Assembly (NCBI GenBank): GCA_031257715.1
Contig: JAIROE010000140.1
Location: 1 to 5,894 of the forward strand
Length of the DNA: 5,894 nucleotides
Direction: 5' to 3'
From: Treponema sp.
GTDB taxonomy: Bacteria; Spirochaetota; Spirochaetia; Treponematales; Breznakiellaceae
Shown here piece after piece: positions 1 through 5,894 of the stretch. The notes beneath the pieces were generated by a model. The model was not told the origin of the DNA and did no database searches. It was given only the letters and a program-made list of their open reading frames with translations. A program made the translations under genes and the position numbers. Positions within the stretch are counted from its first letter, which is position 1; each line of letters begins with the position of its first letter.

Positions 1-1
1 C

Positions 2-1630
2 ATCGTCAGGGACGCGGAACCCGGGCCTTTCCCCATCCGGGGCATAAGCTCCATGAGCGGCATTGCCCTGGTTCGGGTCCAGGGGCCGGGCATGGTGGGA
101 GTAACGGGATTTTCTTCCCGGCTTTTCGGCGCCCTGGCCCGGCGGGAGGTCAACATCATCCTCATTACCCAGAACTCAAGCGAATACTCTATCTGCTTTG
201 CCATCCTGCCTTCCGACACCGCCGCCGCGGAGGCCGCGGTTAAAGAAGAATTCGGCAGGGAAATCGCCGCGGCCCTTATCGATCCTCCGGTCATCGAAAC
301 AGGGCTGTCCATCATCGCGGTGGTAGGCGCCAGAATGAAAAAAACTTTCGGGATCTCCGGCAAGGTTTTTCATGCCCTGGGACGGAACGGGATCAACGTG
401 GTGGCTATTGCCCAGGGTTCCTCGGAGATCAATATCTCCGCCATCGTTGCCAGCCAGGACGAGGCCAAGGCCCTCAACGCGATTCACGAGGCCTTCTTCC
501 TTTCCGGGGTGAGATCGGTCAATCTTTTCCTCATGGGGATAGGTCTTATCGGCGGAACCCTGGTCGAACAGTTTGCCGGCCACCGGGAGATCCTGGCCGA
601 CAGGCACCAGATCCGCGTCAACCTGGCCGCGGCGGCGGATTCCAAAAAGATGATTTTCAGGGCCGAAGGACTGGACCCCAAAACAGTCAAAAACCGTTTA
701 AAGGATCCCGGCTCCGGTACAAGCGGCGCTGATAACGCGGGCGGCGCTGACGGCGCGGTCATTGAGGATTTTAACCTTGAGGGTTTCATCAAAAAAATGA
801 AGTCCTTCAACCTGCCCAACACCTGCTTCTGCGACTGCACGTCGGGGGACGATGTGGCGGGCCACTACGCCGATATTCTTAAGTCCTCCATTCCCATCGT
901 GACCCCCAACAAGCGGGCCAACGCGGGTTCCCTGGAATACTACAAGACCATCACCGGCTTTTCCCGGGATCGCGGGATTCCCTACCTCTACGAGACAACG
1001 GTCTGCGCGGGGCTGCCCGTCATATCCACCCTGAGGGATCTCTTTCTTTCGGGCGACAGGGTACGCCGCATAGAGGCGGTGCTGTCGGGAACCCTGAGCT
1101 ATATTTTCAATAATTTTGACGGAACCAAGGTTTTTTCCGCCCTAGTGAGGGAGGCCAGGGTCAAAGGCTATACCGAGCCTGACCCGCGGGACGATCTCAA
1201 CGCCATGGACGCCGCCCGCAAGGCCCTGATCCTGGCCAGGGAATGTGGTATTCCCCTGGAATTTTCTTCCGTGGTGGTGGAACCCCTGATGCCTCCGGCC
1301 TGCTTTGAGGCATCCGGTGTGGAGGCTTTTTTCGCGGAACTTGAAAAATCGGACGATGATTTCGAAAAACGCCGCGCAAAGGCCGCCTCGGAAGGCAGGG
1401 TACTGCGCTATGTGGCGGTTATCGAGGAAGGCTCGGCCAGGCTTTCCCTCAGGGCCGAAGATCCCGGCAGCCCCTTCCTTTCGCTGGTAGACTCGGACAA
1501 CATCGTGGTGATAACCAGCGACCGGTATTCGAAGCTCCCCATGGTCATCAAGGGCCCCGGCGCGGGCGCCCAGGTGACCGCCGGCGGGGTTTTCGCGGAC
1601 ATCGTGAGGATTGCGAGGACGCTGGTGTGA
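2..1630 (+). CDS. thrA: Bifunctional aspartokinase / homoserine dehydrogenase (ThrA type), 5'-truncated by window edge
   Basis: This is the C-terminal part of the fused enzyme that phosphorylates aspartate and reduces aspartate semialdehyde to homoserine, in the cytosolic threonine/methionine pathway. The frame is open from base 2, so the Met at base 53 (numbered 1 here) is internal. Two ACT regulatory repeats come first (about residues 1-50 and 85-135), with paired TQNSSE and AQGSSE motifs like those that bind threonine in this family. The homoserine dehydrogenase part starts with the nucleotide-binding GIGLIGG (162-168). It continues with DCTSGDDVA (261-269), VTPNKRAN (283-290) and GYTEPDPRDDLNAMDAARK (372-390). 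The last motif contains the equivalents of the yeast enzyme's catalytic Glu, Asp and Lys residues (E375, D386, K390), with K287 as the second lysine. The C-terminus (GAGAQVTAGGVFADIVR) is complete. About 280 residues of kinase domain should lie upstream. A short Gly/Ala/Ser-rich insertion sits at 219-236. Feedback inhibition by threonine is inferred from the ACT domains. Confidence 0.96.
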   Translation: MVRDAEPGPFPIRGISSMSGIALVRVQGPGMVGVTGFSSRLFGALARREVNIILITQNSSEYSICFAILPSDTAAAEAAVKEEFGREIAAALIDPPVIETGLSIIAVVGARMKKTFGISGKVFHALGRNGINVVAIAQGSSEINISAIVASQDEAKALNAIHEAFFLSGVRSVNLFLMGIGLIGGTLVEQFAGHREILADRHQIRVNLAAAADSKKMIFRAEGLDPKTVKNRLKDPGSGTSGADNAGGADGAVIEDFNLEGFIKKMKSFNLPNTCFCDCTSGDDVAGHYADILKSSIPIVTPNKRANAGSLEYYKTITGFSRDRGIPYLYETTVCAGLPVISTLRDLFLSGDRVRRIEAVLSGTLSYIFNNFDGTKVFSALVREARVKGYTEPDPRDDLNAMDAARKALILARECGIPLEFSSVVVEPLMPPACFEASGVEAFFAELEKSDDDFEKRRAKAASEGRVLRYVAVIEEGSARLSLRAEDPGSPFLSLVDSDNIVVITSDRYSKLPMVIKGPGAGAQVTAGGVFADIVRIARTLV

Positions 1631-1676
1631 GGGGGTTAAATGAAGAGAATACAGGTAAAGATCAGGGTTACTCATT

Positions 1677-2732
1677 TCATGATTTTTTATCGTTTTCGAC
1701 GTATCTTTCAACGGCTGTTTTCTTTGTAGCTTCGACCTTTTCCATCGCAGTCCGCGCCAGATCCTCTTTGGCTGCTTTTTCGGCCGCGGATTTTTGGTCA
1801 TCCGCCTCCGCCTGTTTTCGCAGCAACGGTGCAAGCGTTTTTACCGCTTCCATATCGATGATTCCGGCAATACTAGTGTCGTCTCCTTTGCCTTTGGTAG
1901 CGAAGGAGTTCGCAAGGTCTTTTAACTGGCCGCAGGTGGAGTCAAAACCGTCTTCGGCAAAGGTGAGCGCGATGGTCCGGTAGAGCTTGTACAGGTGTTT
2001 CTCGTTTTCCTCGACAGGATAGTTGTCGTCTATGCCATCGCTGCATAAAAAAACGGCAACAGGTAAATTTTTGGATTCGGGAACGTACCGTATACGAGCG
2101 CTTTCAAGAGCGTCATCATCGCAGATTGATGTGGTAACGTTCAAGTAACATCGTTCATCCCAGGGAACGGGCTGGGCAAATGTGCCGTCCTTATAGAGCG
2201 CGGTAAACCTGCCGTCCCCGATGTGAATGCCAAACCAGTAATTTTTGGTTATGGCTGCCGCTATCAACGTAGTTCCATAGGCGTGATGCAAATCCTGTCC
2301 GGCGGTATAGCGTTTTTGATATTTTTCCTCAACATGGACCAGTTCTTCAGCGGTAACAGGATTATCGGTATAATCCTGTTCGACTTTTCCATGCCATTCC
2401 GCTATGATATGTTTAACGAGGTCCCGAATGTATTTTTCAAATATATCCTTTGAAGGCCATTGTTTCAACTTGACTATTTGCATAAGCCGCGGTTTCAAGC
2501 GGTCCACAAATTCAACAACCGCGTCTTTTGTAACGGTGGCGGCGAATTCCGCTCCCTTCGCGCTACGGAAACAGTTGTCGTCCCCGTGCCCATCGGCGAC
2601 CACGGTAAGGACAAGCGGAACGCCGGATTTATTCTGATAGGGCGGGTAATGGAGGGAAAAATCCTCGCAGCCTTTTCCGCGTTTTGAGTGGCTTATGCCG
2701 GTAGCCGTGGCGGAAAATGATTTATAGGGCAT
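1677..2732 (-). CDS. PP2C-family Ser/Thr protein phosphatase of a TerY-type phosphorylation triad
   Basis: This is a predicted cytosolic metal-dependent phosphatase of 351 residues that would reverse phosphorylation by the kinase encoded two genes upstream. PP2C motifs occur in the usual order: the N-terminal GKGCEDFS (E23-D24), VVADGHG (44-50; metal ligand D47), GTTLIAAAI (153-161), HIGDGRF (170-176), LCSDGIDDNY (229-238; D232) and GKGDDTSIAGI (281-291; D284/D285). All expected acidic metal ligands are therefore present. After the catalytic domain, about residues 303-351 form a Lys/Glu/Ala-rich, probably helical tail of unknown role. The start chosen (MPYKSF) lies 4 bases after the stop codon of the VWA gene and has AAGGGGA upstream. 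A longer frame from base 2786 would overlap the VWA gene by about 50 bases and adds only a basic stretch with no family features. It is the last gene of the run and faces thrA tail to tail. Confidence 0.93.
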   Translation of the reverse strand: MPYKSFSATATGISHSKRGKGCEDFSLHYPPYQNKSGVPLVLTVVADGHGDDNCFRSAKGAEFAATVTKDAVVEFVDRLKPRLMQIVKLKQWPSKDIFEKYIRDLVKHIIAEWHGKVEQDYTDNPVTAEELVHVEEKYQKRYTAGQDLHHAYGTTLIAAAITKNYWFGIHIGDGRFTALYKDGTFAQPVPWDERCYLNVTTSICDDDALESARIRYVPESKNLPVAVFLCSDGIDDNYPVEENEKHLYKLYRTIALTFAEDGFDSTCGQLKDLANSFATKGKGDDTSIAGIIDMEAVKTLAPLLRKQAEADDQKSAAEKAAKEDLARTAMEKVEATKKTAVERYVENDKKS

Positions 2733-2736
2733 AGGA

Positions 2737-3474
2737 TTACCAGTCCCCTTGATCGTTTTCCGGCGCGGAGGCAGCGTCTTCCGCAAACTCCTGTAGAGAG
2801 GCGTTTAATTCTTCCTGTTTCTGTTCATCCCCCATATCCGCCGGTGAATCGCTGACGTTGGAACTCTTGCTTGCCACCTGTGAAGCCCGGACGCTGACAA
2901 ACTTTATCATCTTCTTGAGCATCGCGGCGCTATGGGTCTCCAAAACCGCTTCCATGGTACCGGTAAACGCCTTGAGTATCTCTTTGTTCGCATCGTCCCC
3001 TATGGCAATGGCGACTTTTACCCCCGCTTTGAACCATTTGTTTTGTTTTAAAAGATCGAGACCGCCCTGCCAGTCATCGGTAGGTTCGCCGTCGGACATT
3101 AGAAAGATTGCCGGGGCAAAAGAACCGGTGGCTTCCTGCATAAAGGCCCTGGTCGAAAGTTTTTCGTTTAACGCTTTACAGGCCGCGCCCAAATCGGTAA
3201 CACCTCCGGCATCCAAGTAATTCCAATAAAACTGATCGGCTTCTACCGGCCCATTGGCGGTGATCCACCGCGCTCCGCTAGAAAATTCCAGAACCGCTAT
3301 CTTGATCCGGGCGTCCGCGTTTTCATCGGACAATTCTTTTAAGGCGGGAATAACTTCTTCAATCGCGGTATTCACCGCGCCAATCTTCTGACCGTCCATG
3401 CTGCCGGAAGCGTCTATCACAAAAAACAACACCATCGTTCTTCTGGGAATTTCCACTTTGTCTGTCAATGACAT
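2737..3474 (-). CDS. VWA-domain protein of TerY type
   Basis: This 245-residue protein has no signal peptide or membrane segment, so it is probably cytosolic. The VWA fold is recognised by a complete MIDAS metal site: DASGSM (21-26), the Thr in GGVTDLG (T93) and the Asp in LMSDGEPTDDW (D128). The opening RRTMVLFFVIDASGSMDGQKI resembles TerY, the VWA member of tellurite-resistance and stress loci. The VWA core ends near residue 195. The remaining 50 or so residues are Ser/Asp/Glu/Gln-rich and probably disordered, and they contain no cysteine cluster. Many TerY proteins carry a C-terminal metal-binding domain; here a similar domain is encoded by a separate gene at 4791-5165. The start is supported by AAGGAG at 3481-3486, 6 bases upstream of the ATG. 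The gene follows the kinase after 17 bases and precedes the phosphatase by 4, the layout of a TerY/kinase/PP2C triad. It is probably a scaffold or a phosphorylation target; this role is inferred. Confidence 0.92.
   Translation of the reverse strand: MSLTDKVEIPRRTMVLFFVIDASGSMDGQKIGAVNTAIEEVIPALKELSDENADARIKIAVLEFSSGARWITANGPVEADQFYWNYLDAGGVTDLGAACKALNEKLSTRAFMQEATGSFAPAIFLMSDGEPTDDWQGGLDLLKQNKWFKAGVKVAIAIGDDANKEILKAFTGTMEAVLETHSAAMLKKMIKFVSVRASQVASKSSNVSDSPADMGDEQKQEELNASLQEFAEDAASAPENDQGDW
2744..2750 (-). promoter_or_regulatory. Ribosome binding site of the PP2C gene
   Basis: On the minus strand AAGGGGA lies 11 bases before the ATG at 2732, inside the last codons of the VWA gene. It supports the shorter start of the phosphatase over the ATG at 2786. 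The spacing is longer than optimal. Because the VWA stop codon falls between this site and the ATG, translation of the two genes is probably coupled. Confidence 0.5.
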
Positions 3475-3491
3475 TTCATGCTCCTTGTAAT

Positions 3492-4769
3492 TTATTTTAT
3501 TTCGGCGGTATCGGCGCCAAAATTGATTGTTATATTTTTTCTGAGCACAAGGGAAGCGCCGGGGGCAAGCGGGTTTGTACTTTCTTCTTCCGTTATCGTC
3601 CAGGTTTTATCCGACACATTTTTGAGTTCAAAACCGCCGTCCTTTAACGCCGCGGCTTCCCCGGCAAGGGTCTCAAAATCGTCCGAGTCCCTTTCCGTGT
3701 GGCAGGCATACAGTTTTGTACGCTGATGTACCGGGAGGTTGTACCGGCGGGTTTTTATGTAGAACGGGAAGGCTGCGGCCTTTTTACATTTGGGGCAGGG
3801 ATTCGGATTCTCCGGATCGGCAAAATACACTTCCCCGCAGGAACATTTGTAAATCTCGCCCCGCATACGAATAAAGAGCCGGAGCCACTCCTGGTCTATG
3901 ATTCGTTTTGGCGGTTCGTTCATCAACTCTTTGCTAAAGGCTTTGATGAATTCCTGGCGCAGGTATTCCGGCAGGAAAGGCCAGCGGCTTATGGCGCCTT
4001 TATGGAGAGTCTGTACGGGCCGGTTGGAATCGTCGGCGGGATCAAAAATGAATACAGGGTTTGTACCGTAAATCCTTTTTTCGTGTTCCGCGTCCATGCA
4101 GACGGGGCAGCCGTTCTTGCCTTCCAAAGGATGGTTGTTTGTCCACAGCAAAAACAGCACCACCGAAAGGGAAAAACTGTCGGTCTTAATGCCGGGCTTT
4201 GCCTTTTTTGCGACGATCTCCGGCGCCATGTAGCGGGCCTTTCCGGCAATACCGGAATTTTTGCCGTATTCCGATACGTTATCGTTATCGCAGATAAGCA
4301 CATCGCCGTTCTTGGGGTTGATAAAAAAATTGCCGTCGTTCAAGTCCTGGTAGCTGTAGCCGCTGTTATGGAGGGCGCGGAAACCGGCGGTAATATGCAG
4401 CGCGGTATTGACCATCGCGGTTACGCTGGCAAATACTTCTTTACCGATGAGAAATTTGGAAAAATCCTTATACTCAGGAGGCCGCAGGTCCATGATGTAG
4501 CCGAAGGCTTCGCCGTCGCGTCCGGTAAGGTCTTCCGGCCAGAGGAACGCCCTGGTGGGCTTTCCTTTCCTGATATTGTTTTCAAGATTTTCGTAAAACT
4601 TATCAGGGTTCTTAAATTTTTTTCCTGAATACCACTTGAGCGCCTTGGACCGGCCGTCATAGTTTACTTTATAAACCGCGCCCTGGCCGCCTTCGCCAAG
4701 TTTTTCCTCAACGGCTGCCTTTTTGAAGTCTTTAGTCTGAATTGAGTAACCCTTGGGTAAATCCGTCAT
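3492..4769 (-). CDS. Atypical Ser/Thr protein kinase with C-terminal zinc ribbon and beta-rich tail (TerY-associated)
   Basis: This 425-residue predicted kinase has a glycine loop LGEGGQGAVYKV (24-35), the ATP-anchoring lysine in ALKW (K45), a catalytic loop SYQDLNDGNFF (139-149; D142, N147), a metal-binding CDNDN (160-164; D161) in place of DFG, and MAPEI (181-185) in place of APE. HRDxK is replaced by YQDLN, so the usual catalytic-loop lysine is Asn144. The essential Asp and Asn residues remain, so activity is likely. A segment with CPVC (221-224) and YGTNPVFIFDPADDSNRP (234-251) follows, typical of kinases in TerY triads as I recall them. A CxC...CxxC zinc ribbon (C309, C311, C325, C328) comes next. 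The last 45 residues (LKNVSDKTWT...LAPGASLVLRKNITINFG) look like a short beta-sandwich, possibly FHA-like. No membrane segment is seen. The start has GGGGAGGAA (4776-4784) upstream at good spacing. It lies 21 bases after the cysteine-rich gene. Confidence 0.92.
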   Translation of the reverse strand: MTDLPKGYSIQTKDFKKAAVEEKLGEGGQGAVYKVNYDGRSKALKWYSGKKFKNPDKFYENLENNIRKGKPTRAFLWPEDLTGRDGEAFGYIMDLRPPEYKDFSKFLIGKEVFASVTAMVNTALHITAGFRALHNSGYSYQDLNDGNFFINPKNGDVLICDNDNVSEYGKNSGIAGKARYMAPEIVAKKAKPGIKTDSFSLSVVLFLLWTNNHPLEGKNGCPVCMDAEHEKRIYGTNPVFIFDPADDSNRPVQTLHKGAISRWPFLPEYLRQEFIKAFSKELMNEPPKRIIDQEWLRLFIRMRGEIYKCSCGEVYFADPENPNPCPKCKKAAAFPFYIKTRRYNLPVHQRTKLYACHTERDSDDFETLAGEAAALKDGGFELKNVSDKTWTITEEESTNPLAPGASLVLRKNITINFGADTAEIK

Positions 4770-4790
4770 TTATTGTTCCTCCCCTGTTGA

Positions 4791-5165
4791 TTAAAAACCG
4801 CCGCCTTTAACATCAAAACTGCCGGCGGCGCTGTATATACTTGTTTCACCGCACCAGGGGCAAGTCATCTCCGCCGTGCCGTCCCCATTATCGATAATAC
4901 CGCCCCCGCAGCCTGTTTTCCCGCAACCGCACTGCGCAAATCCAATGTTGCCGCAATGGGGACAGCCGGGGTATTCGTCGCCGGCATTCATGGAACCGCT
5001 GATGGTATTCGCGTCAAAACCCTCTCGTTTTGCCTTGCGTTCGTCAATGGGAAACGCCCATGTCCGTACCCAATCCCTGCCGCGTTGTTCAATCCGAATG
5101 CCAAAGGCTTTCTTGGTACTCGAACATTTCGCCATGATAACCTTGGCGTTTAACGGTCCCGCCAT
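4791..5165 (-). CDS. Stand-alone TerY-C-like metal-binding protein
   Basis: This 124-residue protein appears to consist of a single cysteine-rich domain. It has eight cysteines: C14, C68 and C71 (YPGCPHCGN), C79 and C81 (AQCGCGK), C86, and C102 and C105 (TCPWCGE). Two or more zinc ions are likely bound. The N-terminal half has a KKAFGIRIEQ...WVRTWAFPI strand-rich block followed by DERKAKREGFD, the pattern I associate with the TerY-C domain that is fused behind the VWA domain in many TerY proteins. Here it is a separate protein three genes upstream of the VWA gene, counting itself. The start codon lies 3 bases after the upstream stop, with AAGGGGG (5174-5180) 8 bases before it. A second Met at residue 11 is possible but has no better site. 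The C-terminus is a Gly-rich tail. Domain naming is from memory of the family; the metal-binding cysteines are directly visible. Confidence 0.82.
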   Translation of the reverse strand: MAGPLNAKVIMAKCSSTKKAFGIRIEQRGRDWVRTWAFPIDERKAKREGFDANTISGSMNAGDEYPGCPHCGNIGFAQCGCGKTGCGGGIIDNGDGTAEMTCPWCGETSIYSAAGSFDVKGGGF

Positions 5166-5168
5166 TGG

Positions 5169-5690
5169 TTAGACCCCCTTATCCTCATTCTTATGATCTG
5201 CTAAATCACTATCTATTGTTCCTTTTATATTGATGTCAAAACTCTTTTGCAAGGAATCGCAAGATTCTTTTTGAATTTTTCTTTTTGACAGGCCCAAAAA
5301 CCTATAGTTATAACGCAGCATAGCCATATCGGAATAAAATTGAGCCAACTGCCGCCTTTGAAAATGCAAAGTCCTGGAGAAATCAATCAAATCAATCTTT
5401 TCAGACAGTCGAGCGGTTACCTGTTTTTTATACTTGTCAATATATGCGCGGTGAATATTTGAAACGTTGTTGTTACAATCGTGAGCAAAGAAATAAAATA
5501 TTGCCAGTATTGCGGTCCCCATTTCCGCAGTGCGATATTCTTGAACCAGGTTAGCATACATCTGATTAACCATAATCCGGCGCGGTATAAACCATGCAAA
5601 ACCTAATGCAAAGAGCGAAAGGACAATACCTATCGCATCAAGCGGAGTACATTTCGCTTGTTTTACCAGATTACAAAGCCATTGTTCCAT
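5169..5690 (-). CDS. Small membrane-anchored protein, function unknown
   Basis: This 173-residue protein is not assigned to a named family with confidence. One clear transmembrane helix spans about residues 17-36 (LDAIGIVLSLFALGFAWFIP), followed by basic RR. A second hydrophobic stretch, AILAIFYFFA (60-69), is short and may be part of a soluble helix. The motif QMYANLVQEYRTAEMGTAI just after the membrane segment, and the Arg/Tyr-rich helices at 105-135, recall a widespread group of hypothetical proteins with one N-terminal helix and a helical cytosolic part (DUF4760-like); this is a weak resemblance. GC content is clearly lower than in neighbouring genes (39 of 120 bases, about 33%, in 5221-5340). 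The start is supported by GGGGGTGGAG just upstream, overlapping the end of the WD40 gene, 12 bases away. Position inside the operon suggests it anchors or senses for the phosphorylation module. Confidence 0.75.
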   Translation of the reverse strand: MEQWLCNLVKQAKCTPLDAIGIVLSLFALGFAWFIPRRIMVNQMYANLVQEYRTAEMGTAILAIFYFFAHDCNNNVSNIHRAYIDKYKKQVTARLSEKIDLIDFSRTLHFQRRQLAQFYSDMAMLRYNYRFLGLSKRKIQKESCDSLQKSFDINIKGTIDSDLADHKNEDKGV

Positions 5691-5702
5691 TCTCCACCCC
5701 CT

Positions 5703-5894
5703 TTAGTCCATGCCCCAAACTTTGACGGTATGGTCGTATGAACCGGAAACGATGCGCCGCCCGTCGGGACTGTACGCCACGGAAAGGACACGGTGCCTAT
5801 GCCCGCTGAGGGTCATGATTTCCCGCCCGCTCTCCGCGTCCCAGACTTTGACGGTATGGTCCCATGAACCGGAAACGATGCGCCGCCCGTCGGG
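5703..5894 (-). CDS. WD40-repeat protein, C-terminal end only (5' part beyond window)
   Basis: The frame is open from the right edge of the window to a TAA at 5703-5705 and encodes 63 residues. They form the end of one WD40 repeat, one complete repeat and a three-residue tail: PDGRRIVSGSWDHTVKVWDA, then ESGREIMTLSGHRHRVLSVAYS, then a second PDGRRIVSGSYDHTVKVW ending in GMD. The GH and W(D) landmarks of WD40 blades are present, with a spacing of 42 residues. WD40 propellers are protein-interaction platforms, usually of seven blades, so several hundred residues should lie upstream. In bacteria such repeats are often fused behind a Ser/Thr kinase or another effector domain, which cannot be judged here. 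The stop is 12 bases before the membrane-protein gene, so it belongs to the same transcription unit. Confidence 0.93.
   Translation of the reverse strand, partial: PDGRRIVSGSWDHTVKVWDAESGREIMTLSGHRHRVLSVAYSPDGRRIVSGSYDHTVKVWGMD
5719..5768 (-). repeat. WD40-coding direct repeat, copy 2 (last blade)
   Basis: This 50-base stretch matches 5845-5894 with two mismatches, both at 5736-5737 (gt here, cc in the other copy), which change the encoded Tyr to Trp. The period is 126 bases, or 42 codons. The match is at the DNA level and includes third codon positions. Confidence 0.95.
5845..5894 (-). repeat. WD40-coding direct repeat, copy 1 (continues past the window edge)
   Basis: This partner of 5719-5768 is 48 of 50 bases identical. 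The copy reaches the last base of the window, so the repeat unit is longer than seen here and more copies probably follow outside. Confidence 0.95.

Follow-up and report, generated by a model that had tools for sequence, protein, structure and literature searches.

A TerY-P-like phosphorylation operon of Treponema sp. and a shared helical domain on the exchangeable proteins beside related kinases

The TerY-P phosphorylation triad reportedly goes back to Anantharaman et al. 2012. The operon analyzed here resembles this triad and is located in a stretch of 5,894 nucleotides from Treponema sp. (contig JAIROE010000140.1 of assembly GCA_031257715.1, positions 1 to 5,894 of the forward strand), which is referred to as the window. 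In the consulted passages of two papers, TerY-P figures as an anti-phage system in its own right and also as a partner of CoCoNuT systems (PMC11090510, PMC7699616). The CoCoNuT-associated form is described there with a kinase carrying a C-terminal zinc ribbon, and the kinase/phosphatase pair together with the MIDAS-type VWA protein is hypothesized to form a reversible phosphorylation switch (PMC11090510). A different type of organization is known from effector-associated domains (EADs), in which, according to the sections considered, a shared domain docks variable partners on a core system (PMC7159879, PMC8195603). On balance, the operon of the window is read as a TerY-P-type phosphorylation switch serving as a hub onto which exchangeable clients plug. 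The mark of such clients is a helical domain of about 86-105 residues, for which we use our own label AD. The core itself is a TerY-P-like system of known kind, and AD is the new element.

Six adjoining minus-strand genes were verified in the window. In the order of transcription they are:

5703 to 5894, minus strand: WD40 repeat protein, C-terminal end only, with two repeats (PF00400, 3.8e-21); the 5' end is lost at the contig end
5169 to 5690, minus strand: small membrane protein of 173 residues, without a Pfam family; a hydrophobic helix was seen by eye at its N terminus
4791 to 5165, minus strand: free-standing TerY-C-like zinc protein of 124 residues (PF15616, 1.6e-10)
3492 to 4769, minus strand: kinase of 425 residues, consisting of a kinase domain (PF00069, 4.9e-17), a zinc ribbon (C309, C311, C325, C328) and a beta-rich C-terminal domain
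2737 to 3474, minus strand: stand-alone VWA protein of 245 residues (PF00092, 1.1e-8) with a MIDAS-type DASGS motif (by eye)
1677 to 2732, minus strand: PP2C-type Ser/Thr phosphatase (PF13672, 3e-29) with DGHG, GDG, SDG and GDD motifs (by eye)

The intergenic gaps along this order measure 12, 3, 21, 17 and 4 bp, the last counted from the ATG at 2732; the PP2C searches were run with 1677-2726, two residues short of this start. All six genes that a sequence-only reading of this DNA had named as a tightly packed set (VWA/TerY, kinase, PP2C, free TerY-C, membrane and WD40 proteins) are thus present. As in the TerY-P triad, a TerY-like VWA protein, a PP2C phosphatase and a Ser/Thr kinase with a C-terminal zinc ribbon are encoded next to each other and a TerY-C zinc domain is found, as far as the passages seen of PMC11090510 describe it. 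However, TerY-C is a separate protein in the window but fused to VWA in a Klebsiella plasmid (locus L005), and over half of its length the window kinase shares about 25% identity with the kinases of Klebsiella plasmids. The AD proteins at the loci of relatives and the lack of TerD at spirochaete loci are further differences. The operon also resembles the GAP1-N2 kinase, PP2C and vWA module (Kaur et al. 2020, PMC7159879), in which, according to the part of that paper considered, an active kinase is often fused to a zinc ribbon and a beta-rich domain and is accompanied by PP2C and stand-alone vWA genes. The authors of that paper place this theme, with its GAP1/GTPase component, in actinobacteria only.

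Relatives of the kinase were collected from genomes representing one species each, which gave at least 585 confirmed cases. The best 80 genome loci were fetched, and 85 loci were fetched in all (loci and genomes are cited by L and G numbers). For the 80 genome loci, a gene counted as a neighbor if it was encoded on the kinase strand at a distance of at most 8 kb. VWA was present in 76 of these loci, PP2C in 73 and TerY-C in 25, and in 72 the VWA gene was positioned at most 1.5 kb and the PP2C gene at most 4.5 kb from the kinase. The TerY-C gene stood immediately 5' of the kinase in 10 of 21 clustered TerY-C copies. The recurring unit is the VWA/PP2C/kinase triad, sometimes with TerY-C; the proposal made from the sequence, a triad of TerY-P type accompanied by a free TerY-C protein, is borne out. 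Record titles of the relatives name Spirochaetes, Clostridia, Bacteroidetes, Planctomycetia, Riflebacteria, Synergistales and some Proteobacteria, and the named closest kinase matches derive mostly from metagenome genomes of Treponema, Spirochaetaceae and Termitinemataceae. The catalytic residues were identical in all 48 kinases compared, and the zinc-ribbon cysteines C309, C311, C325 and C328 were kept in 47-48 of the 48. Judged by these residues, the window kinase is probably active. Its beta-rich C-terminal domain (residues 330-425, window 3495-3782) looks by eye like the latter part of an FHA domain; a profile search gave no convincing match among PDB sequences (best E 0.82), and the whole kinase gave no Pfam FHA match. 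Fold matches listed for the kinase cover mainly its kinase part.

By Pfam, the proteins encoded beside the core seemed unrelated to each other, comprising WD40, LRR_5, Sel1, FGE, WG and DUF6273 families. Alignment of the N-terminal parts of four of them, followed by an iterated profile search, identified AD in 97 open reading frames (ORFs) from 59 of the 85 loci. It is mostly N-terminal: of 99 domain matches, 89 fall near the start of the protein. The profile found no match among 26240 shuffled ORFs but matched 97 of 1312 real ones, a count that contains its own members. In 58 of the 80 loci, AD is encoded at most 8 kb from the kinase. All 91 domains in the 80 loci were on the kinase strand, at a median distance of 2.3 kb, compared to 426 of 587 other ORFs of at least 150 residues (Fisher 3e-12). 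AlphaFold2 predicted a confident all-helical fold (pLDDT 93.6, pTM 0.84), for which there was no convincing PDB match. No Pfam or NCBIfam family matched more than three of 52 AD members, the best E being 3.9e-4 for a single member. A description of AD was not found in the literature searched, which consisted of titles, the starts of abstracts and passages including those of PMC11090510, PMC7159879, PMC8195603, PMC7699616 and PMC12458937; the TerY-P paper of 2012 is outside this coverage.

The modules joined to AD vary widely. Among the 25 commonest of 101 families, the 97 AD proteins harbored LRR_5 (23 proteins), FGE (10), Sel1 (9), WG (6), DUF6273 (6), TPR (4), zinc ribbon (4) and WD40 (2). 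Single AD proteins carried a DEAD/ResIII helicase (L065, L071), an FtsK translocase (L003), ankyrin repeats (L068) or NPCBM/Big_2 (L029), and several, e.g. in L008, L012 and L013, were without any Pfam family. One protein (L072 14732-16222) has AD at its C terminus and a sub-threshold RES match (8.8e-4); we take RES to be an NAD-consuming toxin domain. When the AD of one WD40 protein was used as query against 5.8 billion proteins, 96 matches with an overlapping range of partners were obtained, five of them with WD40-type propeller models. Kinases that are 71-86% identical to that of the window differ in their neighbor, which is a WD40 (L007, L013), LRR (L009), FGE (L012) or Sel1 protein (L014). 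At L006, which belongs to the same identity group, TPR-like repeats were seen by eye in a gene cut by the contig start, so that AD is not visible. As different payloads stand beside such similar kinases, the core is constant and the payload is exchanged. On a Methylomonas plasmid (L004 14867-19403), five AD proteins follow each other after PP2C; their AD is very similar, but the partners differ and look by eye like Sel1, a Clp N-domain and a ClpX zinc finger.

The occurrence of AD and kinase was also compared across whole genomes. Part of the genomes sampled had also contributed seed rows to the profiles, and short contigs are frequent; the sample names (Lachnospiraceae-like, Bacteroidales-like, Treponema-like) were taken from the labelled loci leading to each sample. 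Among the 34 genomes behind 35 chosen loci, 32 contained AD, and 60 of their 89 AD matches were located at most 15 kb from a kinase. The family around G007 comprised 195 genomes, of which 38 had the kinase, 49 had AD and 34 had both. AD was therefore present in 34 of the 38 genomes with the kinase and in 15 of the 157 without it (Fisher 7e-22; as genomes and sequences are related, this P value and that for the strand bias overstate independence). In the Lachnospiraceae-like family around G017 (200 genomes), AD occurred in six of seven kinase-positive genomes, each time on a kinase contig, and in none of 193 kinase-negative ones. The corresponding numbers for the Bacteroidales-like order around G029 (198 genomes) were one of two and none of 196. 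AD tracks the kinase across these genomes, with a weaker linkage in a phylum-wide sample described below. One member of the G007 family (G401, L086) combines 19 AD matches with one kinase. In this genome and in G009 the AD matches are spread over several contigs, some in tandem, in the manner of a hub with many spokes.

The WD40 protein of the window is most likely a client of this type, with the order AD, zinc ribbon and WD40. This assignment is based on the comparison with L007, where the kinase is 84% identical to that of the window and an AD-WD40 protein is encoded just upstream of a split TerY-C gene and the kinase. The WD40 end of this protein shares 63% identity over 60 residues with the window fragment, and a zinc ribbon was seen by eye between its AD and WD40 parts. 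The TerY-C gene of L007 seems to be in two pieces (9758-9970). WD40 as a fixed component of the system was rejected, since it occurs in only 2 of 97 AD proteins and, as WD40-type propeller models, in 5 of 96 AD matches. The WD40 gene proposed from the sequence as part of the operon does recur with the triad, but as one of many payloads on a shared, mostly N-terminal domain.

The core switch would consist of the kinase with its zinc ribbon, the PP2C phosphatase, the VWA protein and the free TerY-C zinc protein. Clients would carry AD, usually N-terminally, joined to a variable module, in most cases WD40, LRR, TPR/Sel1, FGE, WG or ankyrin recognition repeats and in fewer cases a DNA-acting ATPase such as FtsK or a DEAD/ResIII helicase. 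Docking of the client via AD onto the VWA/TerY-C/kinase core is suggested because the clients vary in their recognition modules and yet share one domain, as is the rule for EADs. In the presumed direction of signaling, the variable module would sense a signal, possibly stress or phage infection, whereupon the kinase would phosphorylate the VWA protein or the client; this may alter assembly or effector activity, and PP2C would reset the system. In the sections of PMC7159879 and PMC8195603 considered, EADs are, like AD, small, mostly helical and non-enzymatic, recur on a range of partners both inside the operon and at other sites of the genome, and are tied to a core. A difference is that the hub of AD is a kinase system and that fusion of AD to a core-type domain was seen only once, in L030, where an extra VWA and not the core one is concerned. 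For 10 AD members all matches at E<=1 were listed, and no Pfam EAD model was among them, although a more remote relation is possible; no EAD was among the 25 commonest of 53 families found with 52 AD members.

The wider proposal is more tentative and in our estimation falls slightly short of an even chance. It holds that AD is an undescribed adaptor-domain family that makes TerY-P a hub-and-spoke phospho-signaling network, probably an immune one, with one core per genome, up to 19 AD proteins, some of them dispersed, and swappable sensors and DNA-acting effectors; it would be a kinase-based counterpart of EAD and Death-domain adaptors. Across several phyla, AD connects functionally unassigned WD40, LRR, FGE, FtsK and helicase proteins to a single signaling core. 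TerY-P triads accompany several defense and stress loci, and AD would mark likely clients in any genome and provide a list of candidate inputs and outputs.

Several observations weigh against the hub. TerY-C is near only the 25 kinases counted above, and 22 of the 80 loci are without AD within 8 kb, some but not all of them on short contigs. In the window AD itself is not visible, the WD40 gene being cut and its N terminus missing from the data, and WD40 is a rare payload. All 16 AD matches of G009 (L017), which has one kinase, are on contigs other than that of the kinase, and they account for 16 of the 29 AD matches beyond 15 kb. In the G007 family, 15 genomes have AD but no detected kinase, and the weakest of the four samples, the spirochaete phylum sample of G007 (198 genomes), showed AD in one of four kinase genomes and one of 194 others.

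The locus might also be an ordinary TerY-P anti-phage or stress operon at which WD40 and other repeat proteins gather as unrelated cargo. The reports of the triad as a stand-alone anti-phage system and CoCoNuT companion, within the passages seen of PMC11090510 and PMC7699616, agree with this. So does L001 (1293-9559, also on the overlapping contig L002), where pglX-pglZ-brxL of a BREX system directly precede the same four-gene set of TerY-C, kinase, VWA and PP2C, after which AD proteins and a UvrD/DEDDh helicase are encoded; the window differs in having no BREX gene, and no search for such genes was made at the other loci. The window kinase also gave modest PADLOC matches to PD-T4-6 (2.3e-14) and MAD6 (2.2e-10), which may reflect general kinase similarity only. 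Nevertheless, the repeat proteins have one common domain that is absent from shuffled sequence, AD is nearly absent from kinase-negative genomes in two samples, and all 91 AD copies are on the kinase strand, which makes unrelated cargo improbable. The PADLOC TerY model, made for the phage-defense version, did not match the window VWA protein; a Methylomonas relative matched it weakly (0.0016) and the Klebsiella proteins did not. Because this model seems narrow and the VWA protein is unmatched, the window system was filed as TerY-P-like and not as that defense system. A defense role is plausible by analogy, and the link to defense made from the sequence is judged reasonable in view of the BREX neighbor and the literature on related triads. 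Slightly less improbable than unrelated cargo, but still unlikely, is a metal- or tellurite-type stress regulator of the Ter system that lost its TerD genes in spirochaetes. TerD-like genes were found at most 8 kb from the kinase in 18 of the 80 loci, one verified by Pfam (PF02342, 9.1e-74). A related large protein is encoded at 13 loci; that of L032 is a cation P-type ATPase. Such TerD neighbors at part of the other loci would favor stress signaling. However, the neighborhoods of 62 of the 80 kinases, among them all 20 spirochaete-labelled ones, yielded no TerD (some contigs are short), so that it looks like an add-on. In the window, which ends upstream inside the WD40 gene, a Pfam search of the proteins found no Ter core genes. 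A TerD cluster just outside the window is beyond the data for this locus. The stated lack of Ter genes holds for the window and the spirochaete-labelled loci but depends on lineage.

The sequence-only reading had also counted the membrane protein as part of the system, and the six genes could then be one functional unit in which this protein anchors the kinase complex at the membrane. The short distances to its two neighbors (3 and 12 bp) point to co-transcription in this strain, but it was encoded at none of the 85 fetched loci. Only eight homologues besides itself were found among 5.8 billion proteins, and no core gene was present within the flanks examined (at most 1.5 kb on each side) of the eight loci fetched for it. 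In the related family the protein occurred in 12 of 195 genomes, only two of which have the kinase, on other contigs; as far as visible, it adjoins the kinase in none of the 12. Its region is the lowest in GC content within the window (0.40 at 5101-5700, compared to 0.485-0.520 for the core). A conserved component is ruled out by its absence from the loci, the few homologues and the lack of kinase adjacency. The membrane protein is probably a local insertion outside the conserved system, and a six-gene unit is very unlikely. Of the six genes whose joint recurrence was surveyed, the triad recurs, WD40 recurs as one of many alternatives and the membrane protein does so at none of the fetched loci.

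A promoter and terminator scan of the window gave counts that hardly exceed those in shuffled sequence. Among the relatives, in-frame stops break the kinase frame in a Spirochaetia genome (L022, about 10010-11262), indicating a decaying copy or a sequencing error. Kinases from L018, L023 and L024, labelled Helicobacteraceae, Prevotellaceae and Zoogloeaceae, are 62-64% identical to that of the window, which may be due to gene transfer or mis-binned contigs. The window contains one further gene, a housekeeping gene convergent to the operon:

53-1630, plus strand: C-terminal part of an aspartokinase/homoserine dehydrogenase fusion, assigned by protein similarity

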